Shown: piece by piece, positions 446 to 34,966 of the stretch | How positions within the stretch are numbered: the stretch's first letter is position 1 | Layout of the letters: each line of letters begins with the position of its first letter | Origin: Bacteroidota bacterium | Lineage (GTDB): Bacteria > Bacteroidota > Bacteroidia > Bacteroidales > WCHB1-69 | Length of the DNA: 38,952 nt | Assembly: GCA_029570835.1 (NCBI GenBank) | Contig: JAKPTX010000230.1 | Span: 1 to 38,952 of the forward strand | Direction of reading: 5' to 3' | Notes under the pieces: model-generated | Told to the model about the DNA's origin: nothing | Seen by the model: the letters and a program-made list of their open reading frames with translations, nothing else | Database searches by the model: none | Program-made: the position numbers and the translations under genes

Positions 446-512
446 TTCCAGAGTGGGGAGTTGAAATAGCAAAAGAGGGGCAAATGTCCTGCCCCCCTTT
501 TATTTTTATTTC
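446..512 (+). repeat. ~70-bp dispersed element, copy A
   Basis: TTCCAGAGTGGGG, then 29 bases, then CCTGCCCCCC followed by a T-rich tail ending TTATTTC. Four further copies (19884-19951, 22813-22872, 33103-33173, 33576-33643) keep the two GC blocks and the 29-30-base spacing. The middle is related but diverged, with an AATA..AAAAGrGG core. Confidence 0.8.
471..501 (-). terminator. Terminator hairpin inside element copy A, downstream of sod
   Basis: AAAAGAGGGGCA pairs with TGCCCCCCTTTT (12 positions, one mismatch) around a 7-base loop. On the minus strand the stem ends in CTTTT, 30 bases after the superoxide dismutase stop. It could also work on the plus strand. Confidence 0.6.
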
Positions 513-19883: not shown

Positions 19884-19951
19884 GAAATAAAAATAAAAGG
19901 GGGGCAGAATTTGAGGTGTCTCTTTTATTATTCCATCACCCCACTCTGGAA
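19884..19951 (-). repeat. ~70-bp dispersed element, copy C
   Basis: Read on the minus strand it has TTCCAGAGTGGGG, a 30-base middle, TCTGCCCCCC and a tail TTTTATTTTTATTTC identical to copy A. AATAAAAG and CTTTTATT can pair, so it may end the transcript of the upstream FN3 gene. Confidence 0.8.
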
Positions 19952-19980
19952 TATGATAGCTTTTTACCTATGCAGGATCA

Positions 19981-20015
19981 ATTACGAATTAAGAATTACG
20001 AATTACGAATTACGA
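19981..20015. repeat. 7-bp tandem array ATTACGA, five units
   Basis: Four ATTACGA units and one ATTAAGA run to within five bases of the FN3 gene stop. Phased as GAATTAC the unit begins with GAA, as in the other heptamer arrays. Confidence 0.9.
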
Positions 20016-20019
20016 AACG

Positions 20020-22725
20020 CTACTGTTTCACAAAACGCTTAGATATCTGCCCTTGTTCAGTAGTTAAGCGCACAAGATAAACACCTGATGCAAAATGACT
20101 TACATCAATAGTTGTGATCTCTTCTTCAATAGACAATACCCGCATTAATCTGCCATACATATCATAAATATGACACTCGGTTGCTCCCAAGAAATCCCTA
20201 TCTATCTTCAAATCAATAAGATACTGAGTTGGATTGGGATAAAGTGTCACATATTTTGACAATTCATTCTCATCAATAACTACAGTTGCAAAAGGGATAG
20301 GTGTAGTAAACCAACTCTCTCCCGATGAACAGATTGCTTTGACCCTCACATGATAGTGAGAACCACTTTGTAATCCGGTCATCGTATATGAGTTTGTATC
20401 AACTGTTACAGTTGTCCAGTTCGTTGCAGAAACCAACTTATAGGCCACTTGCCATGAAGTTTCAGTTCCTCCGGCTGTCCAAGTAGCGGTTGCAGACCGA
20501 TCTGTTATATTAGTCACTTGCAAATCAGTAGGTAGCAAGCAACTTTGATTCGCAGTAATGTTGTCAATGGCTGCAGGGGGTTGACGAACCGTATAATAAT
20601 CATTTTTCCAGCAGAAGTAAAGTCTCTTCGTTTGACCGGAATAATCAGCTGCCGGTAGAATATAAGATTCACTTTGCCATGAAGTCTGAGCACCCATAAT
20701 CGTAGCCAATGCTGTAGCAGTATAATTAGGCGGGTTGACTATACCTGTACAATTAGCAACAGGCATAACTGGATTACCAATATATACGTTAAAATAGTCA
20801 TAATAGGTATTAAGATAAACTTCACCATTAGACTTCCAATCAAAGCTTAAAACATAATCTGATGTAGAAGGAGTGAAATAAATATCTTTAAACGCCCAAA
20901 CTACAGCTGAACTGCCACCATACGAATTTGTAACTCCATTGTCAATGGATATATACAATCCATTACTTCCACCGGGTGTATTATTCACTCCCGCTGCATT
21001 ACCAATATACCAATTGGAACCGGAAGGATTATTTGCAAAAGTAAATCCCGATGGTGTCTCAAAGTCAATAGTAAATGGTACGTCTACAGGAATTTGAACC
21101 GTACAGAAAGTTTGTTTTAGAGACCAGTTACTTGTCTCTCCTGAAGCACAAATGGTTCTAACATAAAAGTCATAACAAGTCGATCCGGTTAATCCGGTAA
21201 GTGTAACGGAATGAGTAGTCAGTGGGAGAATCGTTCCGGTACCTTGAACAAAGCCTGTTTCTCCGTATTCTATTTCCCAGGTATTACCTGACGAAGAACC
21301 GACCCAATCGATATCAGCTGTAGTAGTAGTAACGTTAGAATAACTAATTCCGACAGGGGGTACACACCCTGATGTTCCAATAATGGAAACGTTATCAAGA
21401 TACCATGCGTCGATATAACTATGTTCTCCATCAATTACCCATGCAAAATAGAGTGAGTCCGCCAAAGGTGCAAACTGAAACGTTTGCGTTGTGGGAGCAA
21501 TATAACCACCTGTATGAGAGAATGGAAGATCTGTCCATGTTAGTAAGTCCGGACTACATTGTACCTTGATCAAAGTTCCTGGTATATTAATGCTATACAA
21601 GTGTTTAAAAGATAAAGTAGCCACTGCGACGTTATCAAAACGAATTAATGGAGAGATGAGACGCGATACTGCCGGGTCCATTCCTCCCCCTCCTCCTACC
21701 ATCTCCCCGGCACTTCCACCGGCTTGATAACCATTGGGAGAGTGATACCATACTCCTACTGACGATCCTCCCGAATAGGTTTGTGTCCAACAATAAGGTA
21801 AAGGTGAAGTTGTAAAATTTTCCGAATAGGGTAATGTACATGTTGCACAAGGAGTACCAAAACCGGCTCTAAAGGACCACATACTGCTGTCACTAACATC
21901 ACACATAGCTCTCACACGAACCTCGTAGGCTGTAGCAGGATTAAGACCGGTCAATGTAAATGGATTAGTAGATGCCTGCACTACAGTACCTGTAGTAAAT
22001 CCGGGAACACCATACTCTACCTCCCAATCTGTCACTTCATTGTCAGAACCCCATGCTATAGTAGCAGTTGAGGAACTAACAGAGAGTAAATGGACGTTAC
22101 TTGGCTGAGGACAACTTTCACGAAAATAGATCTGTACATTAGGCAAAGTAGAAACCAGCAATCCGGGGAAAGGGTTAACCGGATTAGGAATAGGATTACC
22201 TTGATTTGTAGATAATCCCCTATTTGTTCCTACATCAGTTGATGTAAAATAGACGGAAGAACTCCATCCTTCCGTTACTTCATTGACAGCTATAACTAAA
22301 TTATCCACTCCATTATACCCGAATGGTTGATCTAACCGAACCTCAATCCACCCGCCACTGGTTGGAACAAAAATATCCCCATCAAAAACTTCGGTTAAAT
22401 CAGCTAAAGCAACCCAATCAGTAGCACTTGAAAAAACTGTTTTGGATGTGTTCCCTATATAGATTTTCCAATGCGTTGCAGATGATAAACTTGTATTCCA
22501 CTCCCTATGCCAGCACAATTTAGTAATGGAATCGTACGTACTATTCCAACCTCCACTCTCCAGCTCAGACTTTAAGACAATATGCTGAGTATAGGAATAG
22601 GCATGAAATGTACTAAACGGGATCGTAGATTGTATGGTTGTTCCATGGGTCGTTTGAACCATTTGCGCATTAACAAAACCAAAGTACAATAAGGCAACTA
22701 AGAAAAAAAACAATCGTTTTTTCAT
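20020..22725 (-). CDS. Secreted fibronectin-III protein with type IX secretion tail
   Basis: A 901-residue surface or secreted protein; no catalytic motif is visible. It starts with a signal peptide (MKKRLFFFLVALLYFGFVNA), has three fibronectin-III domains (begins CPQPSNVHLL, CVPPVGISYS and CLLPTDLQVT) separated by two jelly-roll or MAM-like segments (YCWTQTYSGGS; DFETPSGFTFANNPSG), and ends in a type-A sorting domain (LYPNPTQYLIDLKI, YDMYGRLMRV, GVYLVRLTT, KRFVKQ). I chose the internal ATG because the upstream in-frame ATG (22779) precedes the -7 box and codes for no signal peptide. Likely roles are adhesion or substrate binding, exported through the type IX pathway. Confidence 0.9.
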   Translation of the reverse strand: MKKRLFFFLVALLYFGFVNAQMVQTTHGTTIQSTIPFSTFHAYSYTQHIVLKSELESGGWNSTYDSITKLCWHREWNTSLSSATHWKIYIGNTSKTVFSSATDWVALADLTEVFDGDIFVPTSGGWIEVRLDQPFGYNGVDNLVIAVNEVTEGWSSSVYFTSTDVGTNRGLSTNQGNPIPNPVNPFPGLLVSTLPNVQIYFRESCPQPSNVHLLSVSSSTATIAWGSDNEVTDWEVEYGVPGFTTGTVVQASTNPFTLTGLNPATAYEVRVRAMCDVSDSSMWSFRAGFGTPCATCTLPYSENFTTSPLPYCWTQTYSGGSSVGVWYHSPNGYQAGGSAGEMVGGGGGMDPAVSRLISPLIRFDNVAVATLSFKHLYSINIPGTLIKVQCSPDLLTWTDLPFSHTGGYIAPTTQTFQFAPLADSLYFAWVIDGEHSYIDAWYLDNVSIIGTSGCVPPVGISYSNVTTTTADIDWVGSSSGNTWEIEYGETGFVQGTGTILPLTTHSVTLTGLTGSTCYDFYVRTICASGETSNWSLKQTFCTVQIPVDVPFTIDFETPSGFTFANNPSGSNWYIGNAAGVNNTPGGSNGLYISIDNGVTNSYGGSSAVVWAFKDIYFTPSTSDYVLSFDWKSNGEVYLNTYYDYFNVYIGNPVMPVANCTGIVNPPNYTATALATIMGAQTSWQSESYILPAADYSGQTKRLYFCWKNDYYTVRQPPAAIDNITANQSCLLPTDLQVTNITDRSATATWTAGGTETSWQVAYKLVSATNWTTVTVDTNSYTMTGLQSGSHYHVRVKAICSSGESWFTTPIPFATVVIDENELSKYVTLYPNPTQYLIDLKIDRDFLGATECHIYDMYGRLMRVLSIEEEITTIDVSHFASGVYLVRLTTEQGQISKRFVKQ

Positions 22726-22753
22726 ATTGAACAGGGCTTTTGTTTTACAATTG

Positions 22754-22761
22754 CAAATGTA
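22754..22761 (-). promoter_or_regulatory. -7 box of the FN3 protein gene
   Basis: The minus strand reads TACATTTG (TAnnTTTG), 28 bases before the chosen ATG and inside the longer possible reading frame, which supports the shorter start. Confidence 0.6.
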
Positions 22762-22812
22762 TAGTTTTTTTGTTAACAATCAACACACAACCGAATTCCA
22801 AAAGGAATAATA

Positions 22813-22872
22813 TTACCGAGTGGGGTGATAGATTTGGGTAAAAGGTAAGTCTTGTCTGCCCCCCTTTTTTTT
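22813..22872 (+). repeat. ~70-bp dispersed element, copy D
   Basis: TTACCGAGTGGGG, 29 bases, TCTGCCCCCC and a T-run. The 5' block differs slightly (ACCGAG for CCAGAG). AAAAGG and CCTTTT can pair. A heptamer array follows ten bases later. Confidence 0.75.
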
Positions 22873-22881
22873 AAAAAATCA

Positions 22882-22909
22882 GAAATAAGAAATTAGAAAT
22901 AAGAAATTA
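22882..22909. repeat. 7-bp tandem array GAAATAA/GAAATTA, four units
   Basis: GAAATAA and GAAATTA alternate twice, giving 28 bases with a strict 7-bp period. The following 22910-22996 stretch is AT-rich without a supported gene. Confidence 0.85.
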
Positions 22910-22996
22910 GATATGTAGATCATAACATCCTGTAAATCAATTATATCAAGAAAGAATAACGTTCTAAAAAACTGAATAATTCTAAGTTTATCACCC

Positions 22997-23017
22997 CGTA
23001 ATTCGTAATTCGTAATT
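22997..23017. repeat. 7-bp tandem array CGTAATT, three units
   Basis: Three perfect CGTAATT units. On the other strand this is the same GAATTAC heptamer as at 19981-20015 and 33183-33203. Confidence 0.85.
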
Positions 23018-23024
23018 GAAAAAT

Positions 23025-23052
23025 TTCCGCCTTCCGCCTTCAACCTTCCGCC
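23025..23052. repeat. 7-bp tandem array TTCCGCC, four units
   Basis: TTCCGCC, TTCCGCC, TTCAACC, TTCCGCC. The period is again seven, and the reverse strand phases as GAAGGCG. It lies 7 bases after the CGTAATT array. Confidence 0.85.
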
Positions 23053-23055
23053 TTC

Positions 23056-30101: not shown

Positions 30102-31937
30102 ATGTCAACAAGTAAGCAAATTATTGAAAGAGACAGTGTTGTCGTAAAGTTTGTAGGAGATTCCGGAGACGGAATGCAACTTTCAGGTACTCTTTTTTCT
30201 GATGCAGCAGCTTTAGCGGGCAATGACATTGCCACATTCCCTGATTATCCTGCTGAAATTCGTGCTCCACACAATACCATTGCCGGAGTATCAGGATTTC
30301 AAGTGCACATTGGCAAAGAAACCAAAATTATCGGTGACAAATGTGATGTACTCGTAGCCATGAATCCGGCTTCCCTCAAAGCGAACCTTAAATGGATCGA
30401 CAAAGGAGCTACTATCATCACCGATGGCGATGCCTATGACGAAAAAGCATTAGAGAAAGCAGGCTACGAAAGTAACCCCCTAACTGATGGATCTTTAAGC
30501 TCTTACAATGTAATTGCTCCCCCCATTTCTACTTTAGCTCAAGAAACAGCCAGCCAATATGGCATGGATACAAAAAATGCTGCCAGAACAAAAAATATGT
30601 TCTGCTTGGGCATGGTTTATTATATTTTCAATTTTGAACTAAACACTCCGGGTACACTCATAGATAGACGTTTTAAAAAGAAACCCGAAGTTGCTGAAGT
30701 AAACAAAAAGGTTTTGGAAGCCGGCTATAATTTTGCAGAAACTATTGAAGCCTTTGAATCCAGATTCCAAATCTCTAACGTACAACTTCCAAAAGGAAGA
30801 TATCGTAATATTACCGGTAATATTGCAACAGCATGGGGATTACTGGCAGCTTCCGAACGTTCCGGAAGAGATCTTTTCTTAGGTTCCTATCCTATCACTC
30901 CTGCTACCGAAATTTTAATTGAGATTGCTCAGCACAAATCATTAGGAGCTAAAGTTTTCCAGGCAGAAGATGAAATCGCAGGAATCTGTTCCGCTATTGG
31001 TGCATCCTTCGCCGGTTCATTGGCTGTAACTACTACATCCGGTCCGGGACTTTCATTAAAGACTGAGGCTGTTGGATTAGCAGTTATGACTGAACTTCCC
31101 ATTGTAATTGTAGATGTCCAGCGTGCAGGTCCTTCCACAGGTATGCCCACTAAATCTGAACAAGCCGATTTGAATATGGCACTCTACGGTAGAAATGGTG
31201 AAGCTCCTTGTATAGTAATAGCTGCTTCCTCATCAAGCGATTGTTTCTACGCTGCTTATAATGCTGCAAAATATGCCTTGGAAACCATGACTCCGGTTAT
31301 TTTATTAACCGATGGTAAAATTGGACAAGGAAGTGAATTGTTCAGGATTCCTAAAGTAGCTGATCTTCCTGCTATCAATCCTCCTATTGTTCAACCTAAT
31401 GATCCCGATTTCAAACCTTATCGCAGAGATCCGGAAACTCTGGTTCGTGGATGGGCTATCCCCGGAACAGAAGGATTACAACACAGAGTTGGTGGACTGG
31501 AAAAGACCGATATCTTTGGAGCAGTTTCTACTGATCCTTTAAACCATGAAAAAATGATTAACAACAGGTATGAAAAAGTCATGAGACTGGCTAACCGTAT
31601 TCCTAAACAAGAAGTTACCGGTTGTGTGGATGCCGATACTTTGGTTGTAAGTTGGGGTGGAACAAAAGGAAGCATTGAAACTGCCGTGAAAGAGGTGAAC
31701 AAATCAGGTAAAAAAGTAGCACATGCTCACTTCTCTTACATCATGCCACTACCTTCCAATACTGCGGAAATCTTTGCAAGGTATAAAAAAATACTGGTAT
31801 GTGAATTAAACACCGGACAGTTCGTTGGCTATTTGAGAGCAACACTTCCGGATTTCAAATACCTACAATATAATAAAGTTCAAGGATTACCTTTTACTGT
31901 AGGTGAATTAGTAACAGTTATAAACAATACATTATAG
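30102..31937 (+). CDS. korA: 2-oxoacid:ferredoxin oxidoreductase, fused gamma-alpha subunit
   Basis: Large subunit of a two-gene enzyme that interconverts a 2-oxoacid (2-oxoglutarate in the best-known KorAB) and acyl-CoA using ferredoxin. The 611-residue protein joins a gamma domain (about 10-200; VGDSGDGMQLSG, FPDYPAEIRAP) to an alpha domain (about 220-611; GSYPITPATEI, TTTSGPGLSLKTEA). No ferredoxin domain is included. The beta gene follows after nine bases. No promoter was seen between it and the secreted peptidase, so transcription from the peptidase promoter or an unrecognised internal start is possible. The gamma-alpha fusion separates it from the four-gene system at 23112-25873. Confidence 0.94.
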   Translation: MSTSKQIIERDSVVVKFVGDSGDGMQLSGTLFSDAAALAGNDIATFPDYPAEIRAPHNTIAGVSGFQVHIGKETKIIGDKCDVLVAMNPASLKANLKWIDKGATIITDGDAYDEKALEKAGYESNPLTDGSLSSYNVIAPPISTLAQETASQYGMDTKNAARTKNMFCLGMVYYIFNFELNTPGTLIDRRFKKKPEVAEVNKKVLEAGYNFAETIEAFESRFQISNVQLPKGRYRNITGNIATAWGLLAASERSGRDLFLGSYPITPATEILIEIAQHKSLGAKVFQAEDEIAGICSAIGASFAGSLAVTTTSGPGLSLKTEAVGLAVMTELPIVIVDVQRAGPSTGMPTKSEQADLNMALYGRNGEAPCIVIAASSSSDCFYAAYNAAKYALETMTPVILLTDGKIGQGSELFRIPKVADLPAINPPIVQPNDPDFKPYRRDPETLVRGWAIPGTEGLQHRVGGLEKTDIFGAVSTDPLNHEKMINNRYEKVMRLANRIPKQEVTGCVDADTLVVSWGGTKGSIETAVKEVNKSGKKVAHAHFSYIMPLPSNTAEIFARYKKILVCELNTGQFVGYLRATLPDFKYLQYNKVQGLPFTVGELVTVINNTL

Positions 31938-31946: not shown

Positions 31947-32975
31947 ATGGGAAACAAACAAATACAACAATCACCTGTTTTAACACACGAAGATTTTAAA
32001 AGTGACCAAATGGTTAAATGGTGTCCCGGTTGTGGAAACCATGCAATATTGAATGCTGTAACCAAAGTTTTTCCTTTGGTAGGACATAAAAAAGAAAATT
32101 ATGTAGTAGTATCCGGAATTGGTTGTTCCTCCAGATTCCCCTACTATGTGAGCACTTACGGATTTCATAGTATCCATGGTCGGGCGAATGCCGTTGCAAC
32201 CGGTGTTCGTATTGCCAATCCAAAACTAAGTGTTTGGATTCCAACCGGCGATGGTGACTCATTAGCCATCGGTGGAAATCACTTCATTCATATTATCCGT
32301 AGAAACCTTGACGTTAATATTATATTGTTTAACAATAAAATTTATGGATTAACTAAAGGACAATATTCCCCAACATCTGAAATGGGATCAGTAACAAAAA
32401 CTTCACCTTTTGGAACTATAGAACATCCTTTCAAAGTGGGAGAACTGGTTATTGGAGCCCAGGGAACATTCTTTGGTCGTGCAGTAGACACCAATCCAAA
32501 ATTCATTACTGAAGTGATGGAGGAAGCTGCAAAACATGACGGAACATCAGTGGTTGAAATGCTTCAAAATTGTGTGATTTTCAATGATGGAACACACAAA
32601 ATTATTACCGATAGAGAAACCAAAGATGATATGCAGTTGATTTTGAGACATGGTGAAAAAATGATCTTTGGAAAAGAACGCAATAAGGGTATTGCACTTG
32701 ACATTAACGGATTAAAAGTGATTACTTTTGATCCGAATGGTCCTATTCCCGATGAAATTTTAGTACACGATATGTACAATCCATCTCCCGGAGTTCACTT
32801 GATGTTAGCCAAAATGTATCCTCCTCAATTCCCTATTGCACTGGGTGTTATTCGTTCAGTTCCTGCCAATACCTACTGTCGATTGTTAGCCAATAGCATA
32901 ACTGAAGCCAAAGCTAGTCAAAAGATTAAATGTGTTGATGATTTATTGAACAGTGGAGATACCTGGGAAATCTAA
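31947..32975 (+). CDS. korB: 2-oxoacid:ferredoxin oxidoreductase, beta subunit
   Basis: TPP and [4Fe-4S] subunit, partner of the fused gamma-alpha protein. The 342-residue product has candidate cluster ligands C26 and C29 (CPGCGNH), C60 (GIGCSSR) and C209 (LQNCVIF), and the TPP/Mg motif GDGDSLAIGG (101-110) ending in FNN (128-130). The HGRANAVATG stretch is also conserved. The extra C-terminal ~80 residues relative to the 256-residue beta protein of the other operon are usual for the two-gene type. Translation is set by an unusually good AGGAGG. A candidate terminator lies in the repeat copy about 130 bases downstream. Confidence 0.95.
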   Translation: MGNKQIQQSPVLTHEDFKSDQMVKWCPGCGNHAILNAVTKVFPLVGHKKENYVVVSGIGCSSRFPYYVSTYGFHSIHGRANAVATGVRIANPKLSVWIPTGDGDSLAIGGNHFIHIIRRNLDVNIILFNNKIYGLTKGQYSPTSEMGSVTKTSPFGTIEHPFKVGELVIGAQGTFFGRAVDTNPKFITEVMEEAAKHDGTSVVEMLQNCVIFNDGTHKIITDRETKDDMQLILRHGEKMIFGKERNKGIALDINGLKVITFDPNGPIPDEILVHDMYNPSPGVHLMLAKMYPPQFPIALGVIRSVPANTYCRLLANSITEAKASQKIKCVDDLLNSGDTWEI

Positions 32976-32993: not shown

Positions 32994-33021
32994 GAAGTAA
33001 GAAGTAAGAAGTAAGAAGTAA
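32994..33021. repeat. 7-bp tandem array GAAGTAA, four units
   Basis: Four perfect GAAGTAA units, 19 bases past the korB-type stop. This begins a gene-free stretch to 33814 filled with repeats. Confidence 0.92.
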
Positions 33022-33072
33022 GAAATACACTGTTTGGAAATATATCTCCTTGAAAATCTATATTATAAACAA

Positions 33073-33100
33073 TTTCTAATTTCTTATTTCGTATTTCTAA
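33073..33100. repeat. 7-bp tandem array TTTCTAA-like, four units
   Basis: TTTCTAA, TTTCTTA, TTTCGTA, TTTCTAA; the reverse strand phases as GAAATTA, GAAATAC, GAAATAA. It abuts element copy E, as the GAAATAA array adjoins copy D. Confidence 0.85.
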
Positions 33101-33102
33101 AT

Positions 33103-33173
33103 TAAAAAAAAGGGGGCAGATCAATGTCCCCTTTTTAGTTATTGCATTTCCCCACTCGGAAATGACTCTGGAA
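33103..33173 (-). repeat. ~70-bp dispersed element, copy E
   Basis: Minus-strand order: TTCCAGAG, TCATTTCC, GAGTGGGG, 29 bases, TCTGCCCCC and a T-run. AAAAAGGGG and CCCCTTTTT pair perfectly (33106-33136), so it can terminate transcription from either side, including korB. Confidence 0.78.
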
Positions 33174-33182
33174 TTATTTCCA

Positions 33183-33203
33183 ATTACGAATTACGAATTA
33201 CGA
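33183..33203. repeat. 7-bp tandem array ATTACGA, three units
   Basis: Three perfect ATTACGA units, the same heptamer as at 19981-20015 and 22997-23017. Confidence 0.88.
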
Positions 33204-33210
33204 GATCGTA

Positions 33211-33238
33211 AATTTAGAATTTAGAGTTTAGAATTTAG
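33211..33238. repeat. 7-bp tandem array AATTTAG, four units
   Basis: AATTTAG, AATTTAG, AGTTTAG, AATTTAG; phased as GAATTTA the unit begins with GAA. Confidence 0.88.
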
Positions 33239-33276
33239 AATTGAAATTTTGTTATAGTGTTGTATTTTGCAGCATA

Positions 33277-33297
33277 ACCCCGAAGGGGTGTCATTAT
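33277..33297 (+). repeat. CCCCGAAGGGG element, copy 1
   Basis: The palindrome CCCCGAAGGGG is followed by TGTCATTAT. Copies 2 and 3 follow in the same orientation at 33331 and 33444. Confidence 0.75.
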
Positions 33298-33330
33298 TAT
33301 AGCGCAAAGTTGACCCCAAGAGCCAAATAA

Positions 33331-33351
33331 ACCCCGTAGGGGTGACATTAT
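33331..33351 (+). repeat. CCCCGTAGGGG element, copy 2
   Basis: CCCCGTAGGGG followed by TGACATTAT; same layout as copy 1. Confidence 0.75.
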
Positions 33352-33385
33352 GAAGTGTGAAATATGAAGTTAGAAATTTGAAATA
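33351..33385. repeat. Degenerate 7-bp array TGAARTN, five units
   Basis: TGAAGTG, TGAAATA, TGAAGTT, AGAAATT, TGAAATA keep a 7-bp period with GAA at the same place in each unit. Confidence 0.65.
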
Positions 33386-33575: not shown

Positions 33576-33643
33576 TTCCAGAGTGGGGTAAAAGGATATC
33601 TATAGCGTATTGGACGTTCTGCCCCCCAATATTTTTTATTTCC
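33576..33643 (+). repeat. ~70-bp dispersed element, copy B
   Basis: TTCCAGAGTGGGG, 29 bases, TCTGCCCCCC and a tail ending TTATTTCC. Upstream, ATTCGTAATTGATCCTGCAT is shared with copy C (minus strand), showing that the repeated unit is longer than the GC-block core. Confidence 0.8.
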
Positions 33644-33697
33644 AAAAAAACAGAAAGAAGAAATTAAAGAGCCAAAAATTTTAAATAGACGCAGTAG

Positions 33698-33717
33698 GGA
33701 CAGGTCGCGACCTGTCC
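33698..33717. repeat. Perfect 20-nt palindrome, REP-like
   Basis: GGACAGGTCG is followed by CGACCTGTCC and preceded by GTAG, as in the copies near the left end of the window. Confidence 0.8.
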
Positions 33718-33740
33718 TCCGACAATAATTTTCCCAAATA

Positions 33741-33771
33741 AACAAAAAGAGACGCGGCAAGCCACGTCTCT
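33741..33771 (-). terminator. REP-like hairpin acting as terminator of the decarboxylase operon
   Basis: AGAGACG and CGTCTCT pair, followed inside by GGC/GCC with one mismatch and a 2-base loop. On the minus strand the stem runs into TTTTTGTTT, 44 bases past the mmdB stop. Confidence 0.7.
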
Positions 33772-33814
33772 GTAATGATATAATTAATATTTCGAAATCC
33801 CGAAATTGTTAGTC

Positions 33815-34966
33815 TTAGTACAAGAACCCTAATAAAATTCCGGCTGCAACAGCACTACCGATTACACCCGCTACGTTAGGACCCATAGCATGCATTAAAA
33901 GATAGTTCTTTTTGTCATACTTTAGACCTTCAACAAGAGATACACGAGCAGCATCAGGAACTGCAGATACACCGGAGTTTCCAATTAAAGGATTGATCTT
34001 GTTTCCTTCTTTTAGGAACAGATTTAAAAACTTAACAAATCCCACGCCTGCTGCAGTAGCAAAAATAAATGATAAGGCTCCCAAACCAAAAATCAAAACA
34101 GAATCGGTTGTTAAAAAGTTAGTTGCTTGCGTAGATGCTCCCACTGTAAGTCCAATTAGAATGGTTACTATATCAATAAGAGGACCATTTGCAGTATTTG
34201 CCAACCGTCTTGTAACCGTACTCTCTTTCAACAAATTTCCAAAAAAGAGCATTCCAAGAAGTGGAAGTGCACTAGGAACTAAAAAAGTAGTTAATAAAAT
34301 ACCCAATATAGGGAAGAAAACTTTTTCACGATGTGAAACCGCTCTGGGTGGCCTCATTTTAATTAATCTTTCACGATCACTCGTCAGAAGTCTCATGATA
34401 GGAGGTTGAATAACAGGTACTAAGGCCATATAAGAGTAGGCTGATACCGCAATAGCTCCCATCATTCCCGGAGCCAGTTTTGAAGCCAGGAAGATCGCAG
34501 TTGGACCATCCGCACCGCCGATAATACCGATAGCTCCCGCCTCCATTGCCGAAAAGCCTATTAAAAGCGCAGATATATAAGCTGCAAAAATACCAAACTG
34601 TGCAGCTGCACCAATTAAAATCAGTTTAGGGTTAGAAATTAGGGCTGAAAAGTCTGTCATCGCTCCAATCCCAAGAAATATCAATGGCGGATAGACCCCT
34701 TTAATAACTCCAAAATAAAGATAATTCAAAACCGAGCCGCTTTCATACACCCCCACCTGTAAACCTCCGATAAAGGGAATATTCCCTACTATCATTCCAA
34801 AACCAATAGGAATCAATAATAGAGGTTCATACTCTTTAATTATACCCAAAGCTATGAAAAAAATTCCGATAGCAATCATTATCAAATGCCCCCAGGTTAC
34901 ATTGGCAAACCCGGTATATTGATAAAATTGCGCTATTCCAAATTTAAAAAATTCTAAAAATTCCAT
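33815..34966 (-). CDS. mmdB: Sodium-pumping decarboxylase, beta subunit
   Basis: Membrane subunit that releases CO2 from carboxybiotin and exports sodium. The 383-residue protein is almost wholly hydrophobic with many membrane segments. It has the sodium-site motif GGADGPT (150-156) with D153, the loop VGASTQATNFLT and the late NPLIGNSGVSAVPDAARV. Members serve oxaloacetate, methylmalonyl-CoA or glutaconyl-CoA decarboxylases alike; the carboxyltransferase in the same operon favours methylmalonyl-CoA. It is the last gene of the operon and is followed by a hairpin with a T-run. Confidence 0.93.
   Translation of the reverse strand: MEFLEFFKFGIAQFYQYTGFANVTWGHLIMIAIGIFFIALGIIKEYEPLLLIPIGFGMIVGNIPFIGGLQVGVYESGSVLNYLYFGVIKGVYPPLIFLGIGAMTDFSALISNPKLILIGAAAQFGIFAAYISALLIGFSAMEAGAIGIIGGADGPTAIFLASKLAPGMMGAIAVSAYSYMALVPVIQPPIMRLLTSDRERLIKMRPPRAVSHREKVFFPILGILLTTFLVPSALPLLGMLFFGNLLKESTVTRRLANTANGPLIDIVTILIGLTVGASTQATNFLTTDSVLIFGLGALSFIFATAAGVGFVKFLNLFLKEGNKINPLIGNSGVSAVPDAARVSLVEGLKYDKKNYLLMHAMGPNVAGVIGSAVAAGILLGFLY

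Follow-up and report, generated by a model that had tools for sequence, protein, structure and literature searches.

Tandem arrays with a period of exactly seven bases are present in this Bacteroidota genome far above chance, and the repeated unit of nearly all of them contains the trinucleotide GAA or, read on the other strand, TTC. The account that we prefer, and to which we give about an even chance of being correct, is that these arrays are heptanucleotide simple sequence repeats (SSRs) with a lineage-specific GAA bias, expanded by seven nucleotides at a time and reshuffled as modules. The excess itself is real, but a function of GAA is a candidate only, proposed from the letters of the genomes compared.

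The arrays were noticed in a stretch of 38,952 nucleotides, the whole of which is called the window here. Five of them lie within one 839-bp intergenic region with convergent genes on either side. The window also holds copies of a dispersed element 45-47 bp in length, GAGTGGGG-N(~30)-TGCCCCC, which we call the core. The features needed below are listed by window position and strand, together with what corresponds to some of them in the sister species.

451-496, plus strand: core element
19900-19946, minus strand: core element
19986-20016, plus strand: GAATTAA/GAATTAC array; no sister counterpart
22818-22863, plus strand: core element
22882-22905, plus strand: GAAATAA/GAAATTA array; no sister counterpart
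22997-23017, minus strand: GAATTAC array
23025-23055, minus strand: GAAGGCG array including one GAAGGTT unit; in the sister with one substitution
31947-32975, plus strand: TPP enzyme domain gene (oxidoreductase beta-type subunit), left neighbour of the 839-bp region
32994-33024, plus strand: GAAGTAA array of 4.4 copies with five in-phase GAA; no sister counterpart
33071-33100, minus strand: GAAATAC/GAAATAA/GAAATTA array; no sister counterpart
33112-33157, minus strand: core element; the sister has a similar core at the corresponding place
33182-33203, plus strand: GAATTAC array with just two in-phase GAA
33211-33242, plus strand: GAATTTA array including one GAGTTTA unit
33349-33385, plus strand: degenerate array GAAGTGT GAAATAT GAAGTTA GAAATTT GAA; no sister counterpart
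33581-33626, plus strand: second core, inverted with respect to the first and 423 bp from it; the sister has a core there with a different interior
33815-34966, minus strand: Na+-transporting oxaloacetate decarboxylase beta family gene, right neighbour of the 839-bp region

All five arrays that the sequence-only reading had described in the 839-bp region are present with period 7, and similar arrays that it had reported elsewhere in the window were found at the four positions between 19986 and 23055 listed above. Its statement that every unit can be phased as GAA plus four bases goes slightly too far: CAATTAC, GAGATCG and GAGTTTA also occur, and the array at 33182-33203 has CAATTAC as its first unit and GAGATCG as the unit after it. 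Matches to GAANNNNGAANNNNGAA number 17 in the window, whereas 100 dinucleotide shuffles averaged 0.68 and never exceeded 3. Several arrays lie close to the end of a gene or to a core: the one at 32994-33024 starts 18 bp past the stop of the gene at 31947-32975, that at 19986-20016 is immediately past the stop codon of a minus-strand gene with fn3 and sorting domains (20020-22779), and those at 33071-33100 and 22882-22905 are each on the 3' side of a core (33112-33157 on the minus strand and 22818-22863, respectively).

The genome sample comprised 798,821 bases, window included, which covers about 27% of an assembly of 2.92 Mb in 277 contigs. The genome-wide scan for period-7 arrays that had been proposed on the basis of the window gave, for at least three exact copies, 70 arrays at period 7, one at period 6 and none at each period from 8 to 21; the 70 against 0 at periods 8-21 makes these 7-bp tandem arrays longer than chance, as heptanucleotide SSRs are. 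The control against neighbouring periods agreed: 140 arrays with a lag-matched run of at least 10 were found for period 7, compared with 9 and 3 for periods 6 and 8, and approximate segments numbering 168 at lag 7 and between 1 and 9 at lags 5, 6 and 8-11. The predicted excess of GAA over other heptamers was likewise found: 131 of 140 units contain it on either strand, where shuffling the letters within each unit gives an expectation of 47.0 and a maximum of 63 in 2000 shuffles. Counting each unit type once, GAA is in 16 of 24 distinct units against 8.0 expected, and 16 was never reached in 5000 shuffles. The units vary widely in base composition, the commonest being GAATTAC (32), GAAGGCG (24), GAAAGTC (17), GAAATCC (13), GAATTTA (10) and GAAGGTA (9).

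Runs of in-phase GAA are short. The whole genome has 77 matches to five in-phase GAA, overlaps counted; in the sample 23 runs have five GAA, two have six and none is longer, and longer runs are present outside the sample on contigs 41, 42, 208 and 210. These lengths may be under-read, the assembly being fragmented and some arrays lying near contig ends. The four-base parts differ in 47 of the 67 runs of at least four GAA, and runs of other triplets are also mixed (AAG 30 of 39, AGA 30 of 33, GGA 25 of 33).

Like heptanucleotide SSRs, the arrays are mainly intergenic: of 139 runs with three or more GAA in phase, 119 are noncoding and 20 coding, and in the first sample, where called ORFs cover about 92% of the sequence, runs of at least four GAA were noncoding in 22 of 23. 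They are also concentrated between convergent genes, with GAA runs in 17 of 32 convergent regions and in 33 of 196 other intergenic regions (Fisher p 2.5e-5; regions of at least 60 bp with all lengths pooled, genes from a simple ORF rule). In gaps between tandem genes GAA is sense in 21 and antisense in 24 of 45 runs. In convergent regions 28 of 42 runs have GAA pointing inward, and over all contexts inward outnumbers outward by 69 to 36, a lean for which the arrangement of core elements can account. The suggestion that the repeat is linked to replication found no support in strand, which did not differ significantly between contigs (p 0.08); the lack of strand bias in tandem gaps and between contigs counts against a signal acting at the RNA level or directed by replication. 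The idea that the arrays are two arms of one hairpin was also dropped, the arm units seldom matching in the cases examined.

The association of arrays with the core is oriented. A same-strand GAA run lies within 120 bp downstream in 23 of 47 cores and an opposite-strand run lies upstream in 12, while the other two orientations account for 3 and 5 of the 47 (p 4e-5); 35 of the 67 runs of at least four GAA are within 150 bp of a core. All six pairs of cores less than 500 bp apart in the stretches examined are inverted. At window 19898-23034 the inverted cores at 19900 and 22818 flank a 2.8-kb gene encoding fn3 domains and a secretion sorting tail; at the equivalent place in the sister only 197 bp separate the two cores, the arrays are weaker and there is no fn3/sorting-domain gene. 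This genome carries 125 cores and the sister 154; a third congener has none and each of 57 other relatives at most one, with one match in total among the 58 relatives beyond the sister. In named genomes, the matches listed were, apart from those in UBA5429, single ones in unrelated taxa. Since the third congener has GAA arrays and no core at all, the core is unnecessary for arrays. Two identities for the core were tried and found no support. Against a REP mobilised by a RAYT, PF01797 (Y1_Tnp) gives 0 matches in the sister despite 154 cores there, with 2 matches in this genome and 3 in the core-less third congener. For a structured RNA, there is no covariation beyond letters set by the search pattern, and RNAalifold on 52 distinct cores pairs just four G with four C, all of them demanded by that pattern; cores folded singly are somewhat more stable than mononucleotide shuffles.

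Array modules reappear in different combinations, and many of them consist of four units plus GAA. The 31-mer GAAGGCG GAAGGTT GAAGGCG GAAGGCG GAA is found at 7 genome places, including window 23025-23055, and among 13 GAAATCC arrays 6 share a left flank and 6 a right flank with another, by a threshold that is lax since the flanks themselves contain other arrays. Two four-unit modules, written by their four-base parts, are GGCG-ATCG-GGCG-GGCG and GGTA-ATAA-GGWA-GGWA; in both, the second unit carries AT in place of the GG seen in the other three, as though the four had changed in concert. This shared unit-2 slot pattern points to the copying of old modules rather than to fresh slippage.

Collinear DNA of the sister species was compared over the window plus 68 kb from the start of contig 150, which together hold 11 noncoding runs of at least three GAA in aligned blocks that are 86-98% identical. 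Six runs have no aligned counterpart, three are aligned but altered (contig 150 at 66852 and 66923, window 38122) and two are kept (contig 150 at 232, identical, and window 23025-23055, one base changed). The arrays thus show partial turnover between sister species, and complete turnover is rejected by the two runs kept and three altered of the 11. In the sister, the sequence that follows the oxidoreductase gene on its downstream side carries a core at each of the two matching places and no run of three GAA, and corresponding core sites in the two species can have different interiors. Around 66850 of contig 150 the flanks are 96-98% alike and the arrays span equal endpoints, most units between them differ, and the right end has GAAAGTC-type repeats in both species.

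The sequence-only reading had held that the period and the GAA are kept while the other four bases are free. Its first half accords with the strong excess of GAA among units, but no clear constraint on GAA was seen within arrays. We took 323 pairs of neighbouring units from approximate lag-7 segments that were found without a GAA requirement and retained when GAA was in half or more of their units. The mismatch was 8.7, 5.0 and 12.1% for G, A and A, compared with 13.0, 8.7, 15.2 and 6.5% for the four remaining positions; pooled, 83/969 for GAA against 140/1292 for the other four (p = 0.075), counts that are back-calculated from the percentages and include their rounding. In a set of 17 positions for which a flanking core, and not GAA, served as the anchor, G was non-modal in 13 of 51 units against 36 of 153 at positions 5-7; position 4 was the freest (22 of 51 non-modal) and the two A were the most stable. 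It is these two A that drive the pooled difference in that set, 21 of 153 non-modal for G, A and A against 58 of 204 for the other four positions (p 0.001).

Individual loci point both ways. At 66852 of contig 150 GAAGGTA units in the sister replace GAAGGCG/GAAGGGT in register, with 15 of 15 GAA letters equal, all five GAA retained and 8 of 16 free bases changed; such retention is as a constraint or an in-register module swap would give, and the pattern may reflect either conserved spacing or the exchange of one module for another. At window 23025-23055 the sole substitution between the species falls in a GAA. As far as these data go, GAA mostly marks the units that became arrays, and degenerate copies lost their G about as easily as other letters. 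The presence of GAA in units, with G poorly kept in degenerate copies, fits a filter at birth; purifying selection for a binding site, if strong, would be expected to give more protection of GAA than was observed.

GAA-bearing period-7 arrays are found beyond this genome, unevenly. In stretches of its two congeners GAA was borne by 7 of 9 and 4 of 7 period-7 arrays, and the congener without the core has 129 five-GAA matches (reversed control 82) compared with 77 (62) here; the reversed (AAG) control is contaminated, because GAAG units such as GAAGGCG and GAAGTAA fit both readings. Runs phased as GAAH number 22 in this genome against 16 reversed. Over 296 Bacteroidota genomes, our own left out and 150 of them having GAA matches, GAAH was ahead of its reverse in 115, behind in 52 and tied in 3, with zero for both in the others, and the sums were 2863 against 1714; across the phylum the GAAH excess is a lean, not a rule. 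Stretches of two further genera in the family had arrays of which 11 of 19 (G029) and 3 of 10 (G025) contain GAA. A GAA constant across the phylum is rejected by a set of 20 other genomes, in whose 710,663 bases one of the 8 period-7 arrays had GAA; in this set, the first-listed genome of each of 20 families with five giving less than 5 kb each from a short first contig, period 7 (8 arrays) was no commoner than period 9 (8) or period 12 (10). Stretches of 11 relatives had 42 period-7 arrays against 10 of period 8, a set biased in that the contigs of five genomes were chosen from lists of GAA matches. Period-7 arrays are patchy in the phylum.

Short tandemly repeated repetitive (STRR) heptanucleotides are a cyanobacterial repeat class in which, as here, different heptanucleotide units coexist in one genome; three heptanucleotides are mentioned for Calothrix (PMC4692102). 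Most prokaryotic genomes rich in repeats favour units of seven, and their distribution over species is scattered (Mrazek et al. 2007, via PMC4679880), and polymerase slippage with a 7-nt contact has been proposed for heptanucleotide repeats (PMC4679880; PMC4692102). The present arrays differ from heptanucleotide LSSRs, as described there, in that one trinucleotide runs through 16 unit types and in being short and mosaic with a dispersed core. The closest resemblance in setting is to the assemblages of MacGregor (2015), in which several heptamer repeats occur together in single Bacteroidetes intergenic regions, the regions in close relatives lack obvious repeats and have a smaller length, and a role in rearrangement was suggested (PMC4679880); there as here, different heptamers coexist in one gap and are missing in close relatives. 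Its focus, TAACTGA, has no GAA and is absent from the 24 distinct units seen in 27% of our genome, and a trinucleotide common to its other heptamers is not described in the part of the paper available to us (PMC4679880). The GGGAATC and GGGGA(C/T)T heptads of Xanthomonas and Nostoc, with nearly two hundred arrays per Xanthomonas genome, have partly free positions, and their length and sequence vary widely between close species (PMC4692102); they are G-rich and quadruplex-capable, whereas the units here have no such G-runs. In the repeat literature covered, which lay mostly outside subscription journals and was available in part, no trinucleotide common to nearly all heptamers of a genome was found.

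Under the SSR account short arrays of 2-5 units would arise and re-expand by exactly seven bases, through strand slippage or tandem duplication, and their birth in this genome would proceed almost solely from heptamers with GAA/TTC. Finished arrays would then spread by copying and be shuffled as modules between repeat-crowded intergenic regions, often joined to an end of the 45-47-bp core, and would persist where they are least harmful, above all between convergent genes, with many turning over between sister species. The GAA filter would act mainly at birth or copying and little afterwards. We infer slippage as the birth step, GAA as its requirement and recombinational shuffling; the period, the GAA excess, the location, the core association and the partial turnover from which they are drawn were seen directly. 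Plain slippage fits in part only: it should homogenise units, so the 47 mixed runs of 67 argue against it, and it does not predict that runs in the sample rarely exceed five GAA. Slippage alone also leaves the GAA preference unexplained, and a reason in polymerase or repair was not found.

Protein-binding heptads had been offered as conceivable from the window; a small DNA-binding protein would set one protomer on each GAANNNN and fill at least four units cooperatively. The model would be the Omega/ParB dimer of plasmid pSM19035, a ribbon-helix-helix protein on WATCACW heptads. There 7-bp repeats also stand in either orientation and Omega needs at least four contiguous heptads (PMC9499535), an analogy of working only. 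Omega has one consensus at six plasmid sites, where we find many units at scores of chromosomal places and 16 GAA-bearing unit types in place of a single conserved consensus heptad. A binding protein might explain why the period is exactly 7, why GAAGGCG, GAATTAC, GAAAGTC and GAAATCC have one trinucleotide in common and why so many modules have four units plus GAA; it would lead one to expect free bases and either orientation, as in the absence of a transcription-direction bias, and at 66852 of contig 150 every GAA was indeed retained with half the free bases different. We nevertheless consider it quite unlikely, as GAA has no clear excess conservation inside arrays, the array best kept in the sister has its sole change in a GAA, 6 of 11 runs lack a sister counterpart and another genus of the same family favours a different triplet. 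It is also unlikely, if less than strongly so, that the arrays form the variable termini of the core, taken as a small mobile element that codes for no protein, with GAA inherited from one founder. The confinement of high core numbers to this species and its sister, the oriented core/array association, the inversion of all six close pairs and the enclosure of the fn3/sorting-domain gene by the 19900/22818 pair, where the sister cores are 197 bp apart, are what such an element would leave; but just 35 of 67 runs of at least four GAA are less than 150 bp from a core, the core-less congener has more five-GAA matches than this genome, flanks are shared by 6 of 13 GAAATCC arrays on either side even at a lax threshold, and a single founder would hardly leave three fixed and four free positions over 16 unit types.

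Two regulatory readings fare less well. The pyrimidine strand, UUCNNNNUUC, would place evenly spaced YC steps in a G-poor RNA, both being features of rut sites, and might form a candidate Rho utilisation site that protects convergent genes. Convergent regions are enriched as this would require, and in their 28 inward runs of 42 a read-through RNA would meet UUC last; with UUC on the sense strand in 24 of the 45 tandem-gene runs and on the antisense strand in 21, and no Rfam family except tRNA in the window at gathering score, we regard a Rho site as improbable. Phase-variation (contingency) repeats, in which a change of copy number would switch neighbouring genes, are highly improbable here. 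The 7-bp tandem repeats linked to phase variation of the Haemophilus HMW adhesins lie upstream of the adhesin genes, but the regions most enriched here are the convergent ones, which have no promoter side of any gene, and the five proteins scanned in the window (POR/TPP oxidoreductase subunits, Na+-transporting oxaloacetate decarboxylase beta and the fn3 protein) are of metabolic or surface type. The data lean, not decisively, to a birth-step filter over a binding site. A broader proposal, which we put forward tentatively and think rather unlikely, is that this lineage would have a 7-nt machinery of its own that recognises GAA/TTC. It would be either a protein binding about four heptads or an amplification in which the polymerase realigns on GAA at a 7-nt jump and can expand any heptamer with that trinucleotide; other genera would have a trinucleotide of their own.

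Why seven is the favoured tandem unit in bacteria is an open question, for which contact with the polymerase has been a guess with little data in the work available to us (PMC4679880; PMC4692102). With GAA in 131 of its 140 heptamer arrays, and a sister in which most of the arrays compared are missing or altered, this genome is a good test case: if a filter acts at the birth step, GAA should be confined to young arrays, and if GAA is a binding site, it should be protected in old ones.

Other repeats share the 839-bp region. A pair of palindromic repeats, CCCCGAAGGGGTGTCATTAT and CCCCGTAGGGGTGACATTAT, lies at window 33278-33297 and 33332-33351 on the plus strand; their consensus, CCCCG(A/T)AGGGGTG(A/T)CATTAT, has 22 copies in this genome, several of them in pairs spaced 54 bp, with 21 in the sister and 0 in the other 19 relatives searched. 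In the same gap, window 33690-33772 holds a perfect palindrome, GGACAGGTCGCGACCTGTCC, and a near-perfect one, AGACGCGGCAAGCCACGTCT; the corresponding gap of the sister has the palindrome AGACGCAATGCATTGCGTCT near 31905-31930 of its contig 1, and these three palindromes probably represent other dispersed repeat families.
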